Source: an uncultured Pelagibacteraceae bacterium
Lineage (GTDB): Bacteria > Pseudomonadota > Alphaproteobacteria > Pelagibacterales > Pelagibacteraceae
Assembly (NCBI GenBank): GCA_902615445.1
Contig: CACMOQ010000003.1
Span: 62,001 to 126,000, forward strand
DNA: 64,000 nucleotides
Direction: 5' to 3'
This document shows positions 11,221 through 57,927 of the stretch, one piece after another. The translations under genes were made by a program, and so were the position numbers. Every line of letters begins with the position of its first letter. Position 1 is the stretch's first letter. The notes under the pieces were generated by a model. That model was not told the DNA's origin. It saw only the letters and a list, made by a program, of their open reading frames with translations, and did no database searches.

Positions 11221-11625
11221 TCAAGTTCTACACTTTTTACATAAACCAAAAAACTCAAGATTGTATTTACTGTATTTCATACCATCTTTGTCCTTGAAAT
11301 TAGCTAAGTATTTAGAAAGGCCTGCGCTACTTATTTCAGTAACTTTTTCACACATTTCACAAATTGAAAAAGCAGTAGCTTTAGCTACCTGACAGCTTGA
11401 ATTATGACATGCAATAAAAGCATTCCTACTCTCAATTTTGTGAATTTTTCCTATTTCAATTAATTTGTCTAAGACTCTATAAACTTGCAGTGGAGCTTTT
11501 ATACCTTTCTTTTGAACATTATGGAGTATTGAATAGGCTTTTAATGGCTCAGGAGATTTATCAATTAAATCAAAAATAATTTGCTGATTTTTTGTGAGAG
11601 TATGTTCTTTATGCATAATTTTCAT
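11221..11625 (-). CDS. zur: Fur-family zinc uptake regulator Zur
   Basis: The 134-residue repressor has an N-terminal winged helix with the helix A-P-L-Q-V-Y-R-V-L-D-K-L and a C-terminal dimerisation domain. The structural zinc site is given by C89-E-M-C92 and C129-K-K-C132, with a further Cys73-His74 and Cys78. It is the last gene of znuC-znuB-zur, which together with the H-N-S-S-C region favours Zur over Fur. With zinc bound it should repress the uptake genes through the palindromes at 13212-13244, thereby controlling its own operon. A GAGGAA ribosome-binding site precedes the ATG at 11625. Confidence 0.92.
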   Translation of the reverse strand: MKIMHKEHTLTKNQQIIFDLIDKSPEPLKAYSILHNVQKKGIKAPLQVYRVLDKLIEIGKIHKIESRNAFIACHNSSCQVAKATAFSICEMCEKVTEISSAGLSKYLANFKDKDGMKYSKYNLEFFGLCKKCRT

Positions 11626-11640
11626 TTTACTGATTCCTCA

Positions 11641-12444
11641 TTAATTTTTCAATTTAATCGTTTGTTTTATTTTAAATAATGAAAGTATGAACAATAATAA
11701 AGCTGCTGTTATAATTGATGGACCCGAAGATGTATTAAACTCTAAAGATGTGAATAATCCTATAATTACAGATAACAATCCCCCTATAATTGAATAGATA
11801 ACCATACTTTGTGGACTTGATGACAAATTTCTAGCCATTGCAGCAGGGATAATCAGCATTCCAGTAATTAATAGTAATCCAACCATTTTTATTGAAATAG
11901 CGATGATTGCTGCCACTAAAATTGTAAATATAGCTTTAGCTCTATCCGGATTCAATCCTTCTGCCTCCGCTAGTTCATAATTTACTGTTGAAGCGAATAA
12001 AGGTTTCCAAATTAATTTTAGAACTAATAGGATTAATGCTCCTCCAATCCATATGATCAATAGATCATCAACCGAAACCGCTAAAATATCTCCAAACAAT
12101 AATCCCATAATATCAAATCTAATGAATGTTAAAAAGCCAATAACAACAAGTCCAACTGCCAGAGATGAATGAGCTAGAAGACCCAATAAAGCATCACCTG
12201 GTAAGTTAGTTTTTTTTTGAAGTTGAATTAAAATTAAAGCTATTATGGAAGAAATAACAAATACTGAAATAGCAATATTAAATTCCATAGTAAAAGCTAA
12301 TGTCACTCCCAATAGAGCAGAGTGAGCCAAGGTGTCACCAAAATAAGATAATCTTCTCCATATAACAAAGCAACCAAGAGGTCCTGTTACAAAAGCAACC
12401 CCAATTCCAGCTACCAAAGCTCTTATAAAAAAATCATCAAACAT
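11641..12444 (-). CDS. znuB: Zinc ABC transporter permease ZnuB
   Basis: This is a 267-residue polytopic membrane protein of the ABC-3 metal permease family, with about eight or nine hydrophobic segments. Typical family stretches are P-L-G-C-F-V-I-W-R-R-L-S-Y-F-G-D-T-L-A-H-S near the N terminus and A-E-A-E-G-L-N-P in the middle. It begins directly after the znuC stop and is followed by zur 15 bases later, so the three genes form one operon. It should form the zinc channel with ZnuC and receive metal from ZnuA. Manganese permeases look similar; the Zur and CobW context supports zinc. Confidence 0.94.
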   Translation of the reverse strand: MFDDFFIRALVAGIGVAFVTGPLGCFVIWRRLSYFGDTLAHSALLGVTLAFTMEFNIAISVFVISSIIALILIQLQKKTNLPGDALLGLLAHSSLAVGLVVIGFLTFIRFDIMGLLFGDILAVSVDDLLIIWIGGALILLVLKLIWKPLFASTVNYELAEAEGLNPDRAKAIFTILVAAIIAISIKMVGLLLITGMLIIPAAMARNLSSSPQSMVIYSIIGGLLSVIIGLFTSLEFNTSSGPSIITAALLLFILSLFKIKQTIKLKN

Positions 12445-13191
12445 CTAATTTTTTTTAATTTCACCTTCATCTGTATGAATATGGTCGTGCTTGTGCTCAT
12501 ATCTTGATAATATCTGAGAAGCTTGTTCTCCAAATAAAGCTTTATATTCATTGTTTTTTGCAACATCCATTGGAGATCCCGAGCAACAAACATGGCCGTT
12601 TAAACAAACAACATGGTCTGTTGCACTCATTACTGTGTGTAAGTCGTGTGAAATTAATAAGATCCCACAACTTAATTCATCAGAAATTTTTTTAATTAAT
12701 TCGTATAAAGCTATTTCACCAGTAAAATCTACTCCCTGCACTGGTTCATCAAGCACTAATAGATCAGGTTTTTTTGATATGGCTCTAGCAAGTAGTACTC
12801 TTTGAAATTCACCACCTGATAGATCTCCTAAATTTTTATCTTTAAGATGAATTACTCCAGTTAAAGATAGAGCTTCATCTATTGTATCTTTATTAAGACT
12901 TTCTGTTAACATCATGAAATCATTGACTCTTAGCGGTAACGTCCAATCAATTGAAATTTTCTGAGGGACATATCCAACTTTATTCGTGTATTTTTCAACT
13001 GAACCATCAATCTTTTTGTAAATACCTAAAGCAATTTTAGCTGTTGTGCTTTTTCCTGATCCATTTGGACCTATGAGAGTAACTATTTCCCCTTTTTCAA
13101 CCTGTAGTGAAACACCTTTGACTAGCCATTTGTTATTCAACTGTAAACCAGCATCGTTTAATTTTACCAATATATTTTGATCAGTGCTCAT
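12445..13191 (-). CDS. znuC: Zinc ABC transporter ATP-binding protein ZnuC
   Basis: The 248-residue ABC ATPase has Walker A GPNGSGKST (41-49), the signature L-S-G-G-E-F-Q-R-V and Walker B L-L-V-L-D-E-P. The tail Y-E-H-K-H-D-H-I-H is histidine-rich, as in several ZnuC proteins, and could bind zinc. It is the first gene of znuC-znuB-zur and is divergent from znuA. Its ATG lies only 20 bases from the nearer Zur-type palindrome. The spacing leaves room for only a very short leader, and only a weak AAGA precedes the start. Confidence 0.95.
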   Translation of the reverse strand: MSTDQNILVKLNDAGLQLNNKWLVKGVSLQVEKGEIVTLIGPNGSGKSTTAKIALGIYKKIDGSVEKYTNKVGYVPQKISIDWTLPLRVNDFMMLTESLNKDTIDEALSLTGVIHLKDKNLGDLSGGEFQRVLLARAISKKPDLLVLDEPVQGVDFTGEIALYELIKKISDELSCGILLISHDLHTVMSATDHVVCLNGHVCCSGSPMDVAKNNEYKALFGEQASQILSRYEHKHDHIHTDEGEIKKN

Positions 13192-13211
13192 TTTTTTTCT
13201 TGACTAATAAG

Positions 13212-13226
13212 TGTTATATTATTACA
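13212..13226. promoter_or_regulatory. Zur-type operator, znuC-proximal, one mismatch to palindrome
   Basis: TGTTATATTATTACA differs at one position from the perfect palindrome lying 18 bases further on. It resembles the known alphaproteobacterial and gamma-proteobacterial Zur box core GTTATA-N-TATAAC. It is 20 bases from the znuC start codon and would overlap its promoter. Zur binding is inferred from the sequence pattern and from zur being encoded in the same regulon. Confidence 0.7.
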
Positions 13227-13229
13227 TGA

Positions 13230-13244
13230 TGTTATATTATAACA
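13230..13244. promoter_or_regulatory. Zur-type operator, perfect 15-bp palindrome, znuA-proximal
   Basis: TGTTATATTATAACA is an exact inverted repeat around a central T and matches the Zur box core. It ends 17 bases before the znuA ATG. With the box at 13212 it forms a tandem pair, centres 18 bases apart, in the 70-base divergent znuC-znuA region. Two Zur dimers could therefore control both operons at once. Confidence 0.8.
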
Positions 13245-13261
13245 ATCTAAATATACAACAT

Positions 13262-14320
13262 ATGAAAAACTTAAAAAAATTACCATTAATCCTATCACTA
13301 TTATCATTCTTAACAATATTTGCACCAGCTAACGCTGAGATTAAAGTAGTTGCAGCAATAAAACCAATCCATTCGCTTGCAAGTTATCTAATGGATGGTG
13401 TTGGTAAACCAGATTTAATTGTTGATGGTTATGCTTCCCCACATGGATTTGCACTTAAGCCATCACACGCTAAAATGATACAAAATGCAGATATTATATT
13501 TTGGGTAGGTGAGGATATCGAAACCTTTTTAGAGAAACCATTAAAAACAATTGCAAAAGATGCTGAAAAAATCGAATTAATGGAAATTAAAGGTTTAACT
13601 AAACTTAAATTTAGAGAAAGAAATATTTTTGAAGGTCATGACGATCATGGGCATAAGGAAGATGATCATGACGATCATGCTAAGAAAGAGGATGATCATG
13701 ATGATCACGACCATGATAAAAAAGAGAAGGAACATGGTCATGATGAACACGAACATGATAAAAAAGGTCATAAAAAAGATGGTCACGATGACCATGGACA
13801 CGAGGGACATGCTCACGGAGAGTTTGATCCACACATATGGCTTGATCCGATGAATGCAAAAATAATTTTAAGTGAAATGGCAGAACACTTAATTGAAAAT
13901 GATCAAAAAAATGAGGCAAAATATAAAGCAAATTTAAAAAACGCTCATAAAGATTTAGATAAACTAACTAAGAAAGTAAAATCTGAATTAAATAAAGATT
14001 TTAAATCAATAGTCTTTCATGATGCATATCAATATTTTGAAGAAAGATTTGGGATAAATATTCTTGGGGCATTTACAGTGAACACTGATGTTATGCCAGG
14101 TGCTGAACAATTAGCTGAAATAAGAGAAGTAATTGAGCATGATAAAGTAAGCTGTATTTTTTCAGAACCGCAATTTAATCCTGACATTATTAAGGCTGTT
14201 GCAAAAGATACAAATGTTGCAACAGGGGTTATAGATCCATTAGGTGCAACATTAGATCCAGGAAAAAACTTGTATTTTGATTTAATTAAAAATATGTCTA
14301 ATTCTTTTAAGGGTTGTTAA
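13262..14320 (+). CDS. znuA: Zinc ABC transporter substrate-binding protein ZnuA with histidine-rich loop
   Basis: This 352-residue periplasmic protein starts with a signal peptide ending A-P-A-N-A before E-I-K-V-V. The zinc ligands expected for ZnuA can be placed: His in S-P-H-G-F, His in D-P-H-I-W-L-D-P, His in V-F-H-D-A-Y and Asp in G-V-I-D-P. Between the first and second lies a 63-residue charged loop with 18 histidines, the usual mark separating zinc from manganese binding proteins. The frame is open 17 codons further upstream, but those codons overlap the operators, so the ATG at 13262 is chosen. No clear Shine-Dalgarno precedes it. The CobW-type gene follows after 8 bases. Confidence 0.95.
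   Translation: MKNLKKLPLILSLLSFLTIFAPANAEIKVVAAIKPIHSLASYLMDGVGKPDLIVDGYASPHGFALKPSHAKMIQNADIIFWVGEDIETFLEKPLKTIAKDAEKIELMEIKGLTKLKFRERNIFEGHDDHGHKEDDHDDHAKKEDDHDDHDHDKKEKEHGHDEHEHDKKGHKKDGHDDHGHEGHAHGEFDPHIWLDPMNAKIILSEMAEHLIENDQKNEAKYKANLKNAHKDLDKLTKKVKSELNKDFKSIVFHDAYQYFEERFGINILGAFTVNTDVMPGAEQLAEIREVIEHDKVSCIFSEPQFNPDIIKAVAKDTNVATGVIDPLGATLDPGKNLYFDLIKNMSNSFKGC
13631..13819 (+). repeat. His/Asp-rich low-complexity repeat within znuA
   Basis: The DNA repeats short GATCATGA-like units that encode D-D-H, H-D-H and G-H-steps over ZnuA residues about 124-186 (18 His in 63 residues). Because of this periodic composition, long open frames exist here in several other frames on both strands; these are by-products of the repeat. 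Such loops are thought to capture zinc in the periplasm. The repeat may vary in length between strains through replication slippage. Confidence 0.8.
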
Positions 14321-36295: not shown

Positions 36296-37402
36296 TTGAA
36301 AAAATTTGCCTTTAAAGTTTTAGCTAAAGATAATTTTGCAAGATCAGGGTTAATCGAAACACATAGAGGAAATATTAATACACCAGCTTTCATGCCAGTC
36401 GGTACCCAAGCGACTGTTAAGGCTTGTACAATTAGAGATATTAAAAAAACTGGATCAGAAATAATTCTCTCTAATACTTATCATTTAATGATTAGACCAG
36501 GTGTAGACCGTGTTAAAAATGCTGGAGGATTGCACAAATTTATGAATTGTGATCTTCCTATTTTAACAGACTCTGGCGGTTTTCAAGTTATGTCTTTATC
36601 TAAATTAAATAAAATTGATAGAGAAAAGGGTGCAATTTTTAATTCACATGTTGATGGGAAAAAATTTAATTTAAGTCCAGAAGAAAGTATAAAAATTCAA
36701 TTGGGTTTAGATTCTGATATTGTAATGATTATGGATGAATGCCCTAAAAAAAGTAATGACTATAATTTGATAAAAGACTCTATGAATTTGTCGTTATACT
36801 GGGCGAAAAGGTCAAAAAAAGCTTTTGGTAACAATCCGCACAAAGCTTTATTTGGAATAGTACAAGGAGGTTTATTCAAAGATTTAAGACTTGAGTCGCT
36901 AAATTCTCTAATTGAAATTGGTTTTGATGGATACGCGCTTGGTGGCTTAGCAGTTGGAGAAACTCAAAAAGAGATGTTTCAAGTTTTAGATGATATTAAA
37001 TTAAATCTACCTGAGCTAAAACCCAGATATTTAATGGGTGTTGGCACTCCTTCTGACATTTTAGGAGCAGTCAAAAGAGGTATTGATATGTTTGATTGTG
37101 TTTTACCTACGAGATTAGGAAGAACAGGCTTAGCTTTTACTTGGAATGGTAGAGTTAATGTTAAAAATAAAAAATATCAAAATGATAATTCTCCACTAGA
37201 CAAAGATTGTGACAATTTAGAATTAAACAAGTATTCTTTGAATTATTTAAATCATCTTTTCAACACTAATGAAATTCTTGCATCAATGATTCTAACATTA
37301 CATAATATTAATTTTTACCAAGAATTGATGAGATCAATTAGATCAAATATACAAAAAGGTACCTTTGACAAATTTCACGATAAATACATAGATAAGTTGT
37401 AA
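36296..37402 (+). CDS. tgt: tRNA-guanine (queuine) transglycosylase with a degenerate zinc site
   Basis: Tgt swaps guanine-34 for the queuosine precursor preQ1 in tRNAs with GUN anticodons. The 368-residue barrel has L-T-D-S-G-G-F-Q-V-M-S-L with the catalytic aspartate, G-I-V-Q-G-G, and C-V-L-P-T-R. The usual zinc site is C-X-C-X2-C plus a histidine. Here only Cys305 and His336 remain; positions 307 and 310 are Asn and Leu (C-D-N-L-E-L). The surrounding P-L-D ... Y-L-N-H-L sequence aligns without gaps, so this is replacement, not misreading. The start is a TTG at 36296 with no better alternative. Confidence 0.93.
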   Translation: MKKFAFKVLAKDNFARSGLIETHRGNINTPAFMPVGTQATVKACTIRDIKKTGSEIILSNTYHLMIRPGVDRVKNAGGLHKFMNCDLPILTDSGGFQVMSLSKLNKIDREKGAIFNSHVDGKKFNLSPEESIKIQLGLDSDIVMIMDECPKKSNDYNLIKDSMNLSLYWAKRSKKAFGNNPHKALFGIVQGGLFKDLRLESLNSLIEIGFDGYALGGLAVGETQKEMFQVLDDIKLNLPELKPRYLMGVGTPSDILGAVKRGIDMFDCVLPTRLGRTGLAFTWNGRVNVKNKKYQNDNSPLDKDCDNLELNKYSLNYLNHLFNTNEILASMILTLHNINFYQELMRSIRSNIQKGTFDKFHDKYIDKL

Positions 37403-45995: not shown

Positions 45996-46916
45996 ATGAA
46001 TGACCCAATTAATCAGACCAATCTTTTTGGATTAAATAATTATTTCAATGAATTAAAGTATTTATTTGATAATAACAAATTGCCAAATAAGATATTATTA
46101 TCAGGTCAAAAAGGATCAGGTAAATTTACATTATCACTACATTTAATTAATTATATTTTATCTAAGAACGAGGATTATTCATACGATGTTCAAAATTTAC
46201 TAATTAATGATAAAAATAGATCTTTTAAATTAATTAAAAACAATACATCACCAAATTTTTTTTTAATTGATATCAAAAAAGAAAAAAAGGCTATTGAAGT
46301 TGATCAAATAAGAGAATTAATAAGTTTTTGCAATAAATCTTCTTTTAATAACAAGCCCAGATTTGTTTTGATAGATAATCACGAGTTAATGAATTTAAAT
46401 TCAAATAATGCTTTACTCAAAACTCTAGAAGAACCTAATGATAATATATTTTTTATTATCATTAATAATTCATCAAAAATTTTACAAACTATTAAATCAA
46501 GATGTTTGTACTTTAAAATTTCATTATCACAACAAGAAACTATTAAAATTTTTAATAAGATTATTGATAAAGATATTAATAGTTTGATAAATAATGATTT
46601 AATTTCACATTATTTCACTCCAGGTGATTTACTAAATTTATACAATTTTTCTCTTGAAAAAAAAATTGACTTATTGAACATGAATCTTAAAGAGTTCTTG
46701 TTAAAAATAATTGATAATCAGTATTATAAAAAAGATATTTTAAGTATTAATCTTATATTTGCTTTTTTACAAATGTATTTCATTAAGAAGATTAACAATC
46801 TAGATAATTACTCGGTTTATACAAAATTTGTGAATTCTATTGATGATATTAAAAGATTTAATTTAGATATTGAAAGTTTATTTATCCAATTAAGACATCA
46901 AATAATTAATGACTAA
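45996..46916 (+). CDS. holB: DNA polymerase III delta' subunit
   Basis: This 306-residue clamp-loader ATPase-like subunit has the P-loop region G-Q-K-G-S-G-K-F-T-L, A-L-L-K-T-L-E-E-P-N and I-K-S-R-C. The zinc-finger cysteines of E. coli delta' are absent. The tmk-holB-metG-tatD-phosphodiesterase order is conserved in alphaproteobacteria and supports holB over dnaX. The C-terminal half is poorly conserved and very Asn/Lys-rich. It overlaps metG by eight bases. Confidence 0.88.
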   Translation: MNDPINQTNLFGLNNYFNELKYLFDNNKLPNKILLSGQKGSGKFTLSLHLINYILSKNEDYSYDVQNLLINDKNRSFKLIKNNTSPNFFLIDIKKEKKAIEVDQIRELISFCNKSSFNNKPRFVLIDNHELMNLNSNNALLKTLEEPNDNIFFIIINNSSKILQTIKSRCLYFKISLSQQETIKIFNKIIDKDINSLINNDLISHYFTPGDLLNLYNFSLEKKIDLLNMNLKEFLLKIIDNQYYKKDILSINLIFAFLQMYFIKKINNLDNYSVYTKFVNSIDDIKRFNLDIESLFIQLRHQIIND

Positions 46917-48450
46917 ATATTTTTATATTACTACACCGATTTACTATCCATCTGCGAAACCTCATATGGGCCACGCATACTCAAGTATTATTGCTGATTT
47001 TTTTGCGAGATTTAAAAGAATTGATGGTTTTCAGGTACATTTTTTAACTGGTACTGATGAACATGGATTAAAAATTCAAAGAGCTGCTGAAAAAGAGGGG
47101 ATGGATACATTAAAATTTTGCGATACTATTAGTCAAACATTTAAGGATCTCTCAAAAACTTTAAATTTAACCAATACTGACTTTATAAGAACTACTGAGA
47201 AAAGACATTTAAAATCTGTGCAATATTTATGGAATGAACTAGAAAAAAATGATGACATTTATCTTTCTAAATATTCTGGATGGTACTCTGTATCAGATGA
47301 AGCATTTTATAATGAAGATGAAATTGAGGAAAATAATGGAAAAAAAATAGCAATTTCTTCAAAATCTCTAGTCGAGTGGGTTGATGAGGAGTCTTATTTT
47401 TTTAGATTATCAAAATGGGAAAAGCCTTTACTAAATTTTTATGAAAAAAATCCACAATTTATTTCACCAGAATCTAGAAAAAATGAAGTTATTAGTTTTG
47501 TAAAAAGTGGTTTGAAGGATTTATCTGTAAGTCGGAAGAGTTTTTCTTGGGGTATTAAAGTACCCAGCAATAAAGATCATGTTATATATGTATGGCTTGA
47601 TGCGTTAACTAATTATTTAAGTGCTTTAAATTATCCTGATAAAAATGATAAGTTGCTTAATAATTTTTGGCCTGCCTCATTACACATTATTGGTAAAGAT
47701 ATATTGAGATTTCATGCAATTTATTGGCCAGCTTTTTTGTTAGCAGCTAAAATTAAACCTCCACTAAGAGTTTATGGTCATGGTTGGATACTTTCAGGAG
47801 ATGAAAAAATGTCAAAGTCAAAAGGTAATATATTAGATCCAATTGATATTATAGAAAATTATGGTGTTGATTCCTTGAGATACTATCTCATTAAAGAAGT
47901 TTCTTTTGGAAATGATGGAAATATATCACAAGAGAGACTTGAAGATTGCATTAATAGTGATTTAGCAAATAATTTTGGAAACTTATGTCAACGAGTTGTT
48001 GCTTTTTCTCTAAAAAATTGTGAGGGAAAAATTCCCGATAAAATAGAATTTAACTCAGATGATCTTAAAGTATTAGATAAATTTAAAAATAATTTAAATA
48101 CTATAAGGGAAAAAATTGATAAACAAGATATTAATTTTTATATAGACTTTATTGTAAATTCTTTATTTGAGGCAAACAAATATTTTAATGATCAAGAGCC
48201 CTGGAAAAAGAAAGATAATCTAATCAGATTAAATACAATAGTTTATACAACATTAGAAATAGTGAGAAAAATAAGCTATTTATTATACCCTATTATCCCA
48301 GAGTCTTCTGTTAAAGCACTAAAAATTTTTGATATAAAGGAAAAAGATATTAATTTTTCTTCATTAGAAAATAATGAGTTTTTAATTAAAGACAAAAAAA
48401 TAAATAAAATAGATATATTATTTAAAAAAATAGAAAAAAATAATGATTGA
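46909..48450 (+). CDS. metG: Methionyl-tRNA synthetase
   Basis: This 513-residue class I synthetase starts I-T-T-P-I-Y-Y-P-S-A-K-P-H-M-G-H (HIGH motif) and has E-K-M-S-K-S-K-G-N. It is the short form without the zinc-knuckle cysteines (G-W-Y-S-V-S-D-E-A-F-Y) and without the C-terminal tRNA-binding extension. It overlaps holB and tatD by eight bases each. Confidence 0.97.
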   Translation: MTKYFYITTPIYYPSAKPHMGHAYSSIIADFFARFKRIDGFQVHFLTGTDEHGLKIQRAAEKEGMDTLKFCDTISQTFKDLSKTLNLTNTDFIRTTEKRHLKSVQYLWNELEKNDDIYLSKYSGWYSVSDEAFYNEDEIEENNGKKIAISSKSLVEWVDEESYFFRLSKWEKPLLNFYEKNPQFISPESRKNEVISFVKSGLKDLSVSRKSFSWGIKVPSNKDHVIYVWLDALTNYLSALNYPDKNDKLLNNFWPASLHIIGKDILRFHAIYWPAFLLAAKIKPPLRVYGHGWILSGDEKMSKSKGNILDPIDIIENYGVDSLRYYLIKEVSFGNDGNISQERLEDCINSDLANNFGNLCQRVVAFSLKNCEGKIPDKIEFNSDDLKVLDKFKNNLNTIREKIDKQDINFYIDFIVNSLFEANKYFNDQEPWKKKDNLIRLNTIVYTTLEIVRKISYLLYPIIPESSVKALKIFDIKEKDINFSSLENNEFLIKDKKINKIDILFKKIEKNND

Positions 48451-57735: not shown

Positions 57736-57927
57736 ATGGCCAAAAAAACTCATATTAAAGTAAGACTTGTCCCTGAAGCTAAACCAGATAGCTCTTTTTT
57801 TTACTATGTTAAAAAACCTGCAGGTGGAGAAAAAGCTAAAGTAAAATTAAAAGTAAAAAAATATAATCCATCTACTCGTAAACATGAAGTTTTTGTTGAA
57901 AAAAAACTTCCTCCTCATAGTAAATAA
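57736..57927 (+). CDS. rpmG: Large-subunit ribosomal protein L33
   Basis: The 63-residue protein starts M-A-K-K-T-H-I-K-V-R-L-V and has Y-Y-V-K-K and K-K-Y-N-P-S-T-R-K-H. It is the zinc-independent form without C-X-X-C pairs and is slightly longer than usual (about 55). The stop is directly adjacent to the convergent chorismate mutase stop. Confidence 0.93.
   Translation: MAKKTHIKVRLVPEAKPDSSFFYYVKKPAGGEKAKVKLKVKKYNPSTRKHEVFVEKKLPPHSK

Follow-up and report, generated by a model that had tools for sequence, protein, structure and literature searches.

Can a bacterial tRNA-guanine(34) transglycosylase still work after its structural zinc site has been taken apart, and what would lead to the loss of the metal? 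The question is raised by tgt in a 64,000-nucleotide stretch of DNA from an uncultured Pelagibacteraceae bacterium, which was analysed as a whole and is called the window here (Table 1). The product of this gene scored 458.6 bits against the equivalog model TIGR00430 (cut-off, 306.75 bits) and 472.5 bits against PF01702, and it carries both catalytic aspartate motifs of bacterial Tgt. Descriptions of Tgt usually include a structural zinc atom. The zinc domain, composed of a C-x-C-x2-C motif and a histidine, is termed a hallmark of transglycosylases in a structural paper (PMC6165067). In the window Tgt, however, the ligand positions read C-N-L-H, so that it is not filed as a zinc-containing Tgt. 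The initial annotation had reported that two of the zinc cysteines are missing; they are indeed replaced by Asn307 and Leu310, with Cys305 and His336 kept, and the flanking residues align to Z. mobilis Tgt without gaps, as it had also stated (C-H-C-A-V-C versus C-D-N-L-E-L).

Table 1. Positions and properties of tgt, its motifs, and related genes (window coordinates unless a contig handle is given)
Feature	Position	Strand	Remarks
tgt, tRNA-guanine(34) transglycosylase	36296..37402	+	368 aa, TTG start; TIGR00430, PF01702, AlphaFold model
TDSGGFQ catalytic motif (general acid/base Asp)	36566..36586	+	identical in 84/84 unique genus sequences
MDEC base-recognition motif	36731..36742	+	84/84 unique genus sequences
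GGLAVGE preQ1-type substrate pocket	36941..36961	+	84/84 unique genus sequences; pocket rule from section 15 of PMC11570991
FDCVLPTR nucleophile motif	37091..37114	+	identical in 82/84 unique genus sequences
C-x-C-x2-C zinc motif remnant, Cys305-Asp-Asn307-Leu-Glu-Leu310	37208..37225	+	codons 37208-37210 (Cys305), 37214-37216 (Asn307), 37223-37225 (Leu310); sequence, ungapped alignment to zinc Tgt, close relatives identical
His336, fourth zinc-ligand position	37301..37303	+	retained in the window; Asn in 10/84 unique genus sequences
His361, C-terminal helix	37376-37378		candidate ligand
Zinc uptake locus (Zur-like Fur-family regulator, ZnuB, ZnuC, ZnuA)	11221-14320		22 kb from tgt; profile matches
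COG0523/CobW-like GTPase, 3' of znuA	14320-15302		gene split by a frameshift near the P-loop, which may be genuine or stem from single-cell assembly
delta', zinc-free form	45996-46916		only Cys112 and Cys170
MetG, zinc-free form	46909-48450		no knuckle cysteines; Cys at 71, 347, 360, 371
L33, zinc-free form	57736-57927		no Cys; TIGR01023 borderline, 23.9 bits vs cut-off 23.95
QPTR of the same genome	L281:1468-2016	-	TIGR00697, 98 bits vs cut-off 51

The residues that replace the ligands are real and are held in place. The segment PLDKDCDNLELNKYS is identical in five named Pelagibacteraceae single-cell assemblies with about 98% Tgt identity (L062 to L066), so a read error in the window tgt is very unlikely, and sequencing error was rejected as the source of Asn307 and Leu310. 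In the window's genus, for which 84 unique sequences were compared, position 305 is always Cys and position 310 always Leu, whereas position 307 is Asn in 82 (Ile and Lys once each) and position 336 is His in 74 and Asn in 10, giving the patterns C-N-L-H (72 sequences), C-N-L-N (10), C-I-L-H (1), and C-K-L-H (1). Since Asn307 and Leu310 are conserved in turn, these positions do not drift, which points to a remodelled protein core. An intact C-x-C-x2-C...H site was present in none of the 161 Tgt loci aligned from Pelagibacterales (141 plus 20, with the window's own gene counted twice, as L001 and L032, and with named and unnamed loci that may stem from the same genomes), and the histidine is also lost in some of them. 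Two of the four ligands are kept in 75 of 80 unnamed Pelagibacterales genomes and one in the other 5; the site has thus been dismantled, as first proposed, throughout the loci aligned. The leftover single cysteine differs between lineages and may be Cys1, Cys2, or Cys3: genera g5 and g6 have C-[IL]-L-H in 7 of 9 loci, genera g2 to g4 have [VI]-C-S-H in 8/8, and family f2 has S-N-C-H in 33/33. This would mean that the ancestor had all three cysteines and that they were removed by separate routes, provided that lost cysteines were never regained.

Loss of the zinc site in Tgt is wider than the initial annotation supposed. In a non-random sample of other alphaproteobacterial genomes, the site is broken in 51 of the 199 examined, belonging to 33 of 147 families, of which 31 are broken in every member examined and 2 are mixed; 48 of these 51 genomes keep no more than two of the four ligands, and their sizes range up to 8 Mb. 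Fourteen of 69 matching records of a plasmid collection were also examined. Among the eight named alphaproteobacterial ones, the site is broken in Sinorhizobium meliloti (S-C-T-N), Shinella (S-C-A-N), and Methylobacterium bullatum (S-C-A-N) and intact in three Paracoccus, one Sphingomonas, and Magnetococcus; it is intact in six further named records, E. coli included. All 70 Tgts from non-alphaproteobacterial Pseudomonadota are intact, a biased sample in that they come from the better-scoring matches, the class and phylum matches being ordered by a profile score that a broken site lowers. The aligned ligand letters of two divergent loci (L218 and L469) vary between runs, and both are broken each time. 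In small alphaproteobacterial genomes, tgt was also seen interrupted: in three genomes it has a single in-frame stop, and in G588 it is split between two frames (loci L493, L497, L207, and L499).

In order to place these losses, a Tgt tree of 274 sequences was used, from which the four ligand columns had been removed, the fragment L499 omitted, and the Pelagibacterales and non-alphaproteobacterial sequences thinned. The broken state needs 14 changes on the tree as built and at least 10 to 12 with weak nodes collapsed, which suggests at least 10 to 14 separate losses, a number that rests on nodes of modest support. The clade containing Pelagibacterales has a support of 0.79, and AT-rich composition may draw its members together; two 1.4 Mb genomes that group near Pelagibacterales (G574 and G610) are zinc-less too. 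Family f111 contains a stepwise loss, with C-C-S-H in one genome and S-C-S-H in a relative (L168 and L157). A comparison of 31 broken with 84 intact representatives, in which kinship was ignored, associated several residue positions with the state of the site (e.g., 23, 184, and 277).

Outside the zinc site, the window Tgt shows no damage, and purifying selection on it is strong (median dN/dS 0.06; 0.059 over 1273 pairs with dS between 0.05 and 0.8, the pairs not being independent). An AlphaFold2 model based on 71 aligned sequences has a mean pLDDT of 91.7, with values of 83 to 96 for the 10-residue blocks over model residues 291 to 340 and weaker blocks of 70 to 77 beside the active-site loop (model residues 91 to 110). 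The predicted model, in which metal binding is invisible, contains the TIM barrel and the C-terminal subdomain and superimposes on Z. mobilis TGT (1PUD) at 1.2 Å with a TM score of 0.97.

The strongest argument for function comes from other species. QueA was found in 9 of 11 zinc-less genomes probed outside Pelagibacterales, so these bacteria presumably make use of what Tgt produces. The Tgt of S. meliloti strain Ak57 (S-C-T-N) keeps one ligand. In the parts of PMC3568095 that concern S. meliloti 1021, loss of tgt gives the phenotype of a queuosine-pathway mutant and severely impairs symbiosis, the queA mutant has little symbiotic phenotype, and preQ1 rescues queC and queF mutants in a cell assay while tgt and queA mutants are not rescued. 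The comparison mixes strains, with the sequence from Ak57 and the genetics from 1021; by analogy, it indicates that a zinc-less Tgt works. Family f151, whose Tgts are 73 to 86% identical to that of S. meliloti and which is regarded for that reason as the rhizobial family, is broken in 9 of 9 genomes examined. In section 16 of PMC11570991, partial complementation by B. henselae TGT is described for an E. coli queDF tgt deletion supplied with preQ1. A zinc-less 1.5 Mb member of family f151 (G918) is probably a Bartonella. In E. coli, Tgt loses activity when its zinc ligands are mutated, so the dispensability of zinc must depend on the background.

It is therefore very likely, in our judgment, that the Tgts described here are functional bacterial enzymes that do without the metal, zinc having been lost repeatedly and probably through relaxed constraint. 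The C-terminal subdomain, normally clamped by zinc, would hold its fold through protein packing alone, with the former ligand positions filled by Ser, Ala, Leu, Asn, or one leftover Cys, and the dimeric TIM-barrel enzyme would still swap guanine-34 of GUN tRNAs for preQ1. Zinc would first have become dispensable in alphaproteobacterial Tgt and then have been lost again and again, with relaxed constraint as a more probable cause than selection for zinc saving. A more specific version, in which one permissive change in alphaproteobacterial Tgt was followed by at least ten dismantlings along different routes to give a class of working metal-free Tgts, we regard as evenly poised between true and false. 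If it is true, these proteins amount to a natural experiment in which a metalloenzyme sheds its metal and keeps its function. The repeated loss in apparently working alphaproteobacterial Tgts suggests that the metal is dispensable, and it offers many independent contrasts for finding what replaces zinc.

The substrate of the genus Tgt is most likely preQ1 taken up from outside. No QueA was found among 25 genus genomes (many are incomplete) or among 25 further genomes of family f1, and QueF scored above its cut-off in 0 of 28 Pelagibacterales probed; weak sub-cut-off QueF matches occur in 27 of these 28, and the one frame that was read is a FolE-like protein. Searches for these two enzymes likewise found neither in the window's own genome (92% complete) and in near-complete relatives. 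The transporter QPTR, on the other hand, is present in 28/28 Pelagibacterales probed (that of the window's genome falls below the narrower model NF008406, 121.6 versus a cut-off of 252), and the pocket GGLAVG stands in all 84 unique genus sequences. QPTR and the pocket, together with the lack of QueA and QueF, predict preQ1 salvage, so that the genus Tgt probably uses preQ1 imported by QPTR, and, because QueA is missing, preQ1 would not be converted further and preQ1-tRNA would be the end product. Pelagibacter has been proposed as a tgt-only preQ1 salvager in section 15 of Quaiyum et al. 2024 (PMC11570991), and this part is accordingly not new. By section 18 of that paper, tgt, queA, and queG were all present in the alphaproteobacteria analysed except Bartonella; this is at odds with the missing QueA of the genus, although section 15 calls Pelagibacter tgt-only. 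In the sister family f2, QueA is present in 15 of 16 genomes, queA adjoins tgt in all 14 for which both places are listed, and QueF was not found above cut-off in the 4 genomes probed; to judge by its genes, this family may salvage preQ1 and carry the conversion further. Loss of QueA was rejected as a correlate of zinc loss, since family f2 and the 9 of 11 other genomes named above are zinc-less with QueA.

The initial annotation had proposed that zinc economy in oligotrophic seawater drove the change, low zinc having selected for removal of the site as in other proteins, and this is not supported. Its companion statement, that the window encodes zinc-free MetG, L33, and delta', is borne out (Table 1) and speaks for zinc saving, as do the zinc-less 1.4 Mb genomes near Pelagibacterales on the Tgt tree, and surface-ocean zinc scarcity is real (PMC4771312). 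Zinc economy of oligotrophs, however, predicts losses in small marine genomes, and the observed pattern differs: the same loss is found in S. meliloti, Shinella, Methylobacterium, and genomes of up to 8 Mb, and four 0.9 Mb genomes are intact (L225, L233, L237, and L238). Among preQ1-pocket Tgts, the median genome size is 3.4 Mb for both broken (n = 45) and intact (n = 114) sites (P = 0.26), so genome reduction was rejected as a correlate; over all Tgts, genomes are slightly larger in the broken group (3.1 Mb versus 2.5 Mb, P = 0.046). The window, moreover, encodes zur and znuABC and zinc proteins, including an M48 protease with HEIAH and a UvrA with four CxxC motifs. FolE is zinc dependent, and that of a relative keeps its C...H...C pattern. 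In PMC4771312, high-affinity zinc uptake is described as an exception to the reduction of metal transporters in SAR11, with a tentative link to low surface zinc, and znuA is given for 50% of the SAR11 genomes analysed there, whereas the Tgt change is found in every Pelagibacterales locus examined. The losses in large genomes, the intact small ones, and the zinc uptake genes of the window together favour relaxed constraint; the loss can be explained without scarce zinc in the ocean, and as its driver we hold zinc economy unlikely, with a small contribution from zinc saving a minor possibility. Because plant symbionts show the same change, zinc economy should not be read from single proteins in oligotrophs.

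It is still less probable that the site was rebuilt, with Cys305, His336, His361, or other residues holding zinc, or some other metal, in a changed geometry. The initial annotation had named a sequence error and compensating ligands nearby as the two things that could overturn it; the former is set aside by the identical relatives, and, as to the latter, no compensating or newly conserved cysteine was found in the C-terminal region of the genus Tgts, with His361 left as a candidate. His361 is invariant in the genus (84/84) and rare in intact Tgts (4/188), so a weak new metal site is conceivable. Two other lineages have histidines in place of ligand cysteines, H-H-T-H in L498 (G841) and H-H-L-A in L456 (G939), and these are possibly rebuilt metal sites. 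However, His336 is Asn in 10 of the 84 genus sequences, and sister genera keep different single cysteines, which argues that there is no common new ligand set. Least probable of all, and rejected, is decay, in which an inactive Tgt, recognizable by its broken site, is following the other queuosine genes out of the lineage: neither QueA nor QueF was found, and 27 of 247 genomes of the order, most of them incomplete drafts, show no tgt, but the catalytic motifs and the replacements at 307 and 310 are conserved under purifying selection, tgt is present in 7/7 single-contig genus genomes among the matches listed (7 genomes without a match are not among them), and family f2, in which QueA is nearly always kept, has a broken site as well.

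The zinc-less, probably working Tgt of the window can be set beside several known systems. Zinc-containing Tgts (Z. mobilis 1PUD, E. coli) share with the window Tgt the fold, the catalytic aspartate motifs, and the preQ1 pocket (54% identity to 1PUD by structural alignment), whereas two of the three zinc cysteines are replaced here and, in some sister sequences, the histidine too. The Tgts of S. meliloti and related Hyphomicrobiales likewise combine a broken zinc site with a preQ1-type pocket; most of them read S-C-[SAT]-[HN], with Cys2 kept, whereas C-N-L-H here keeps Cys1, and a queuosine pathway is described for S. meliloti (PMC3568095), unlike the window's genus, in which QueA and QueF were not found. 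The tgt-only preQ1 salvage of Bartonella henselae (PMC11570991) is similar in having tgt and QPTR, no QueA found, and a GGLAVGE pocket; zinc is not discussed in that paper, the word being absent from the main text of its preprint version. Among the matches listed in the open-licence literature (titles and abstract starts), no report of a zinc-less Tgt was found, which is weak evidence of absence. The recurrent loss of structural zinc cysteines has its likeness in the C-minus forms of the ribosomal proteins L33, L31, and S4, which lost them repeatedly with their function kept. Such C-minus proteins are often paired with Zur-regulated paralogues, whereas each Pelagibacterales genome with a hit has one tgt match among the matches listed.
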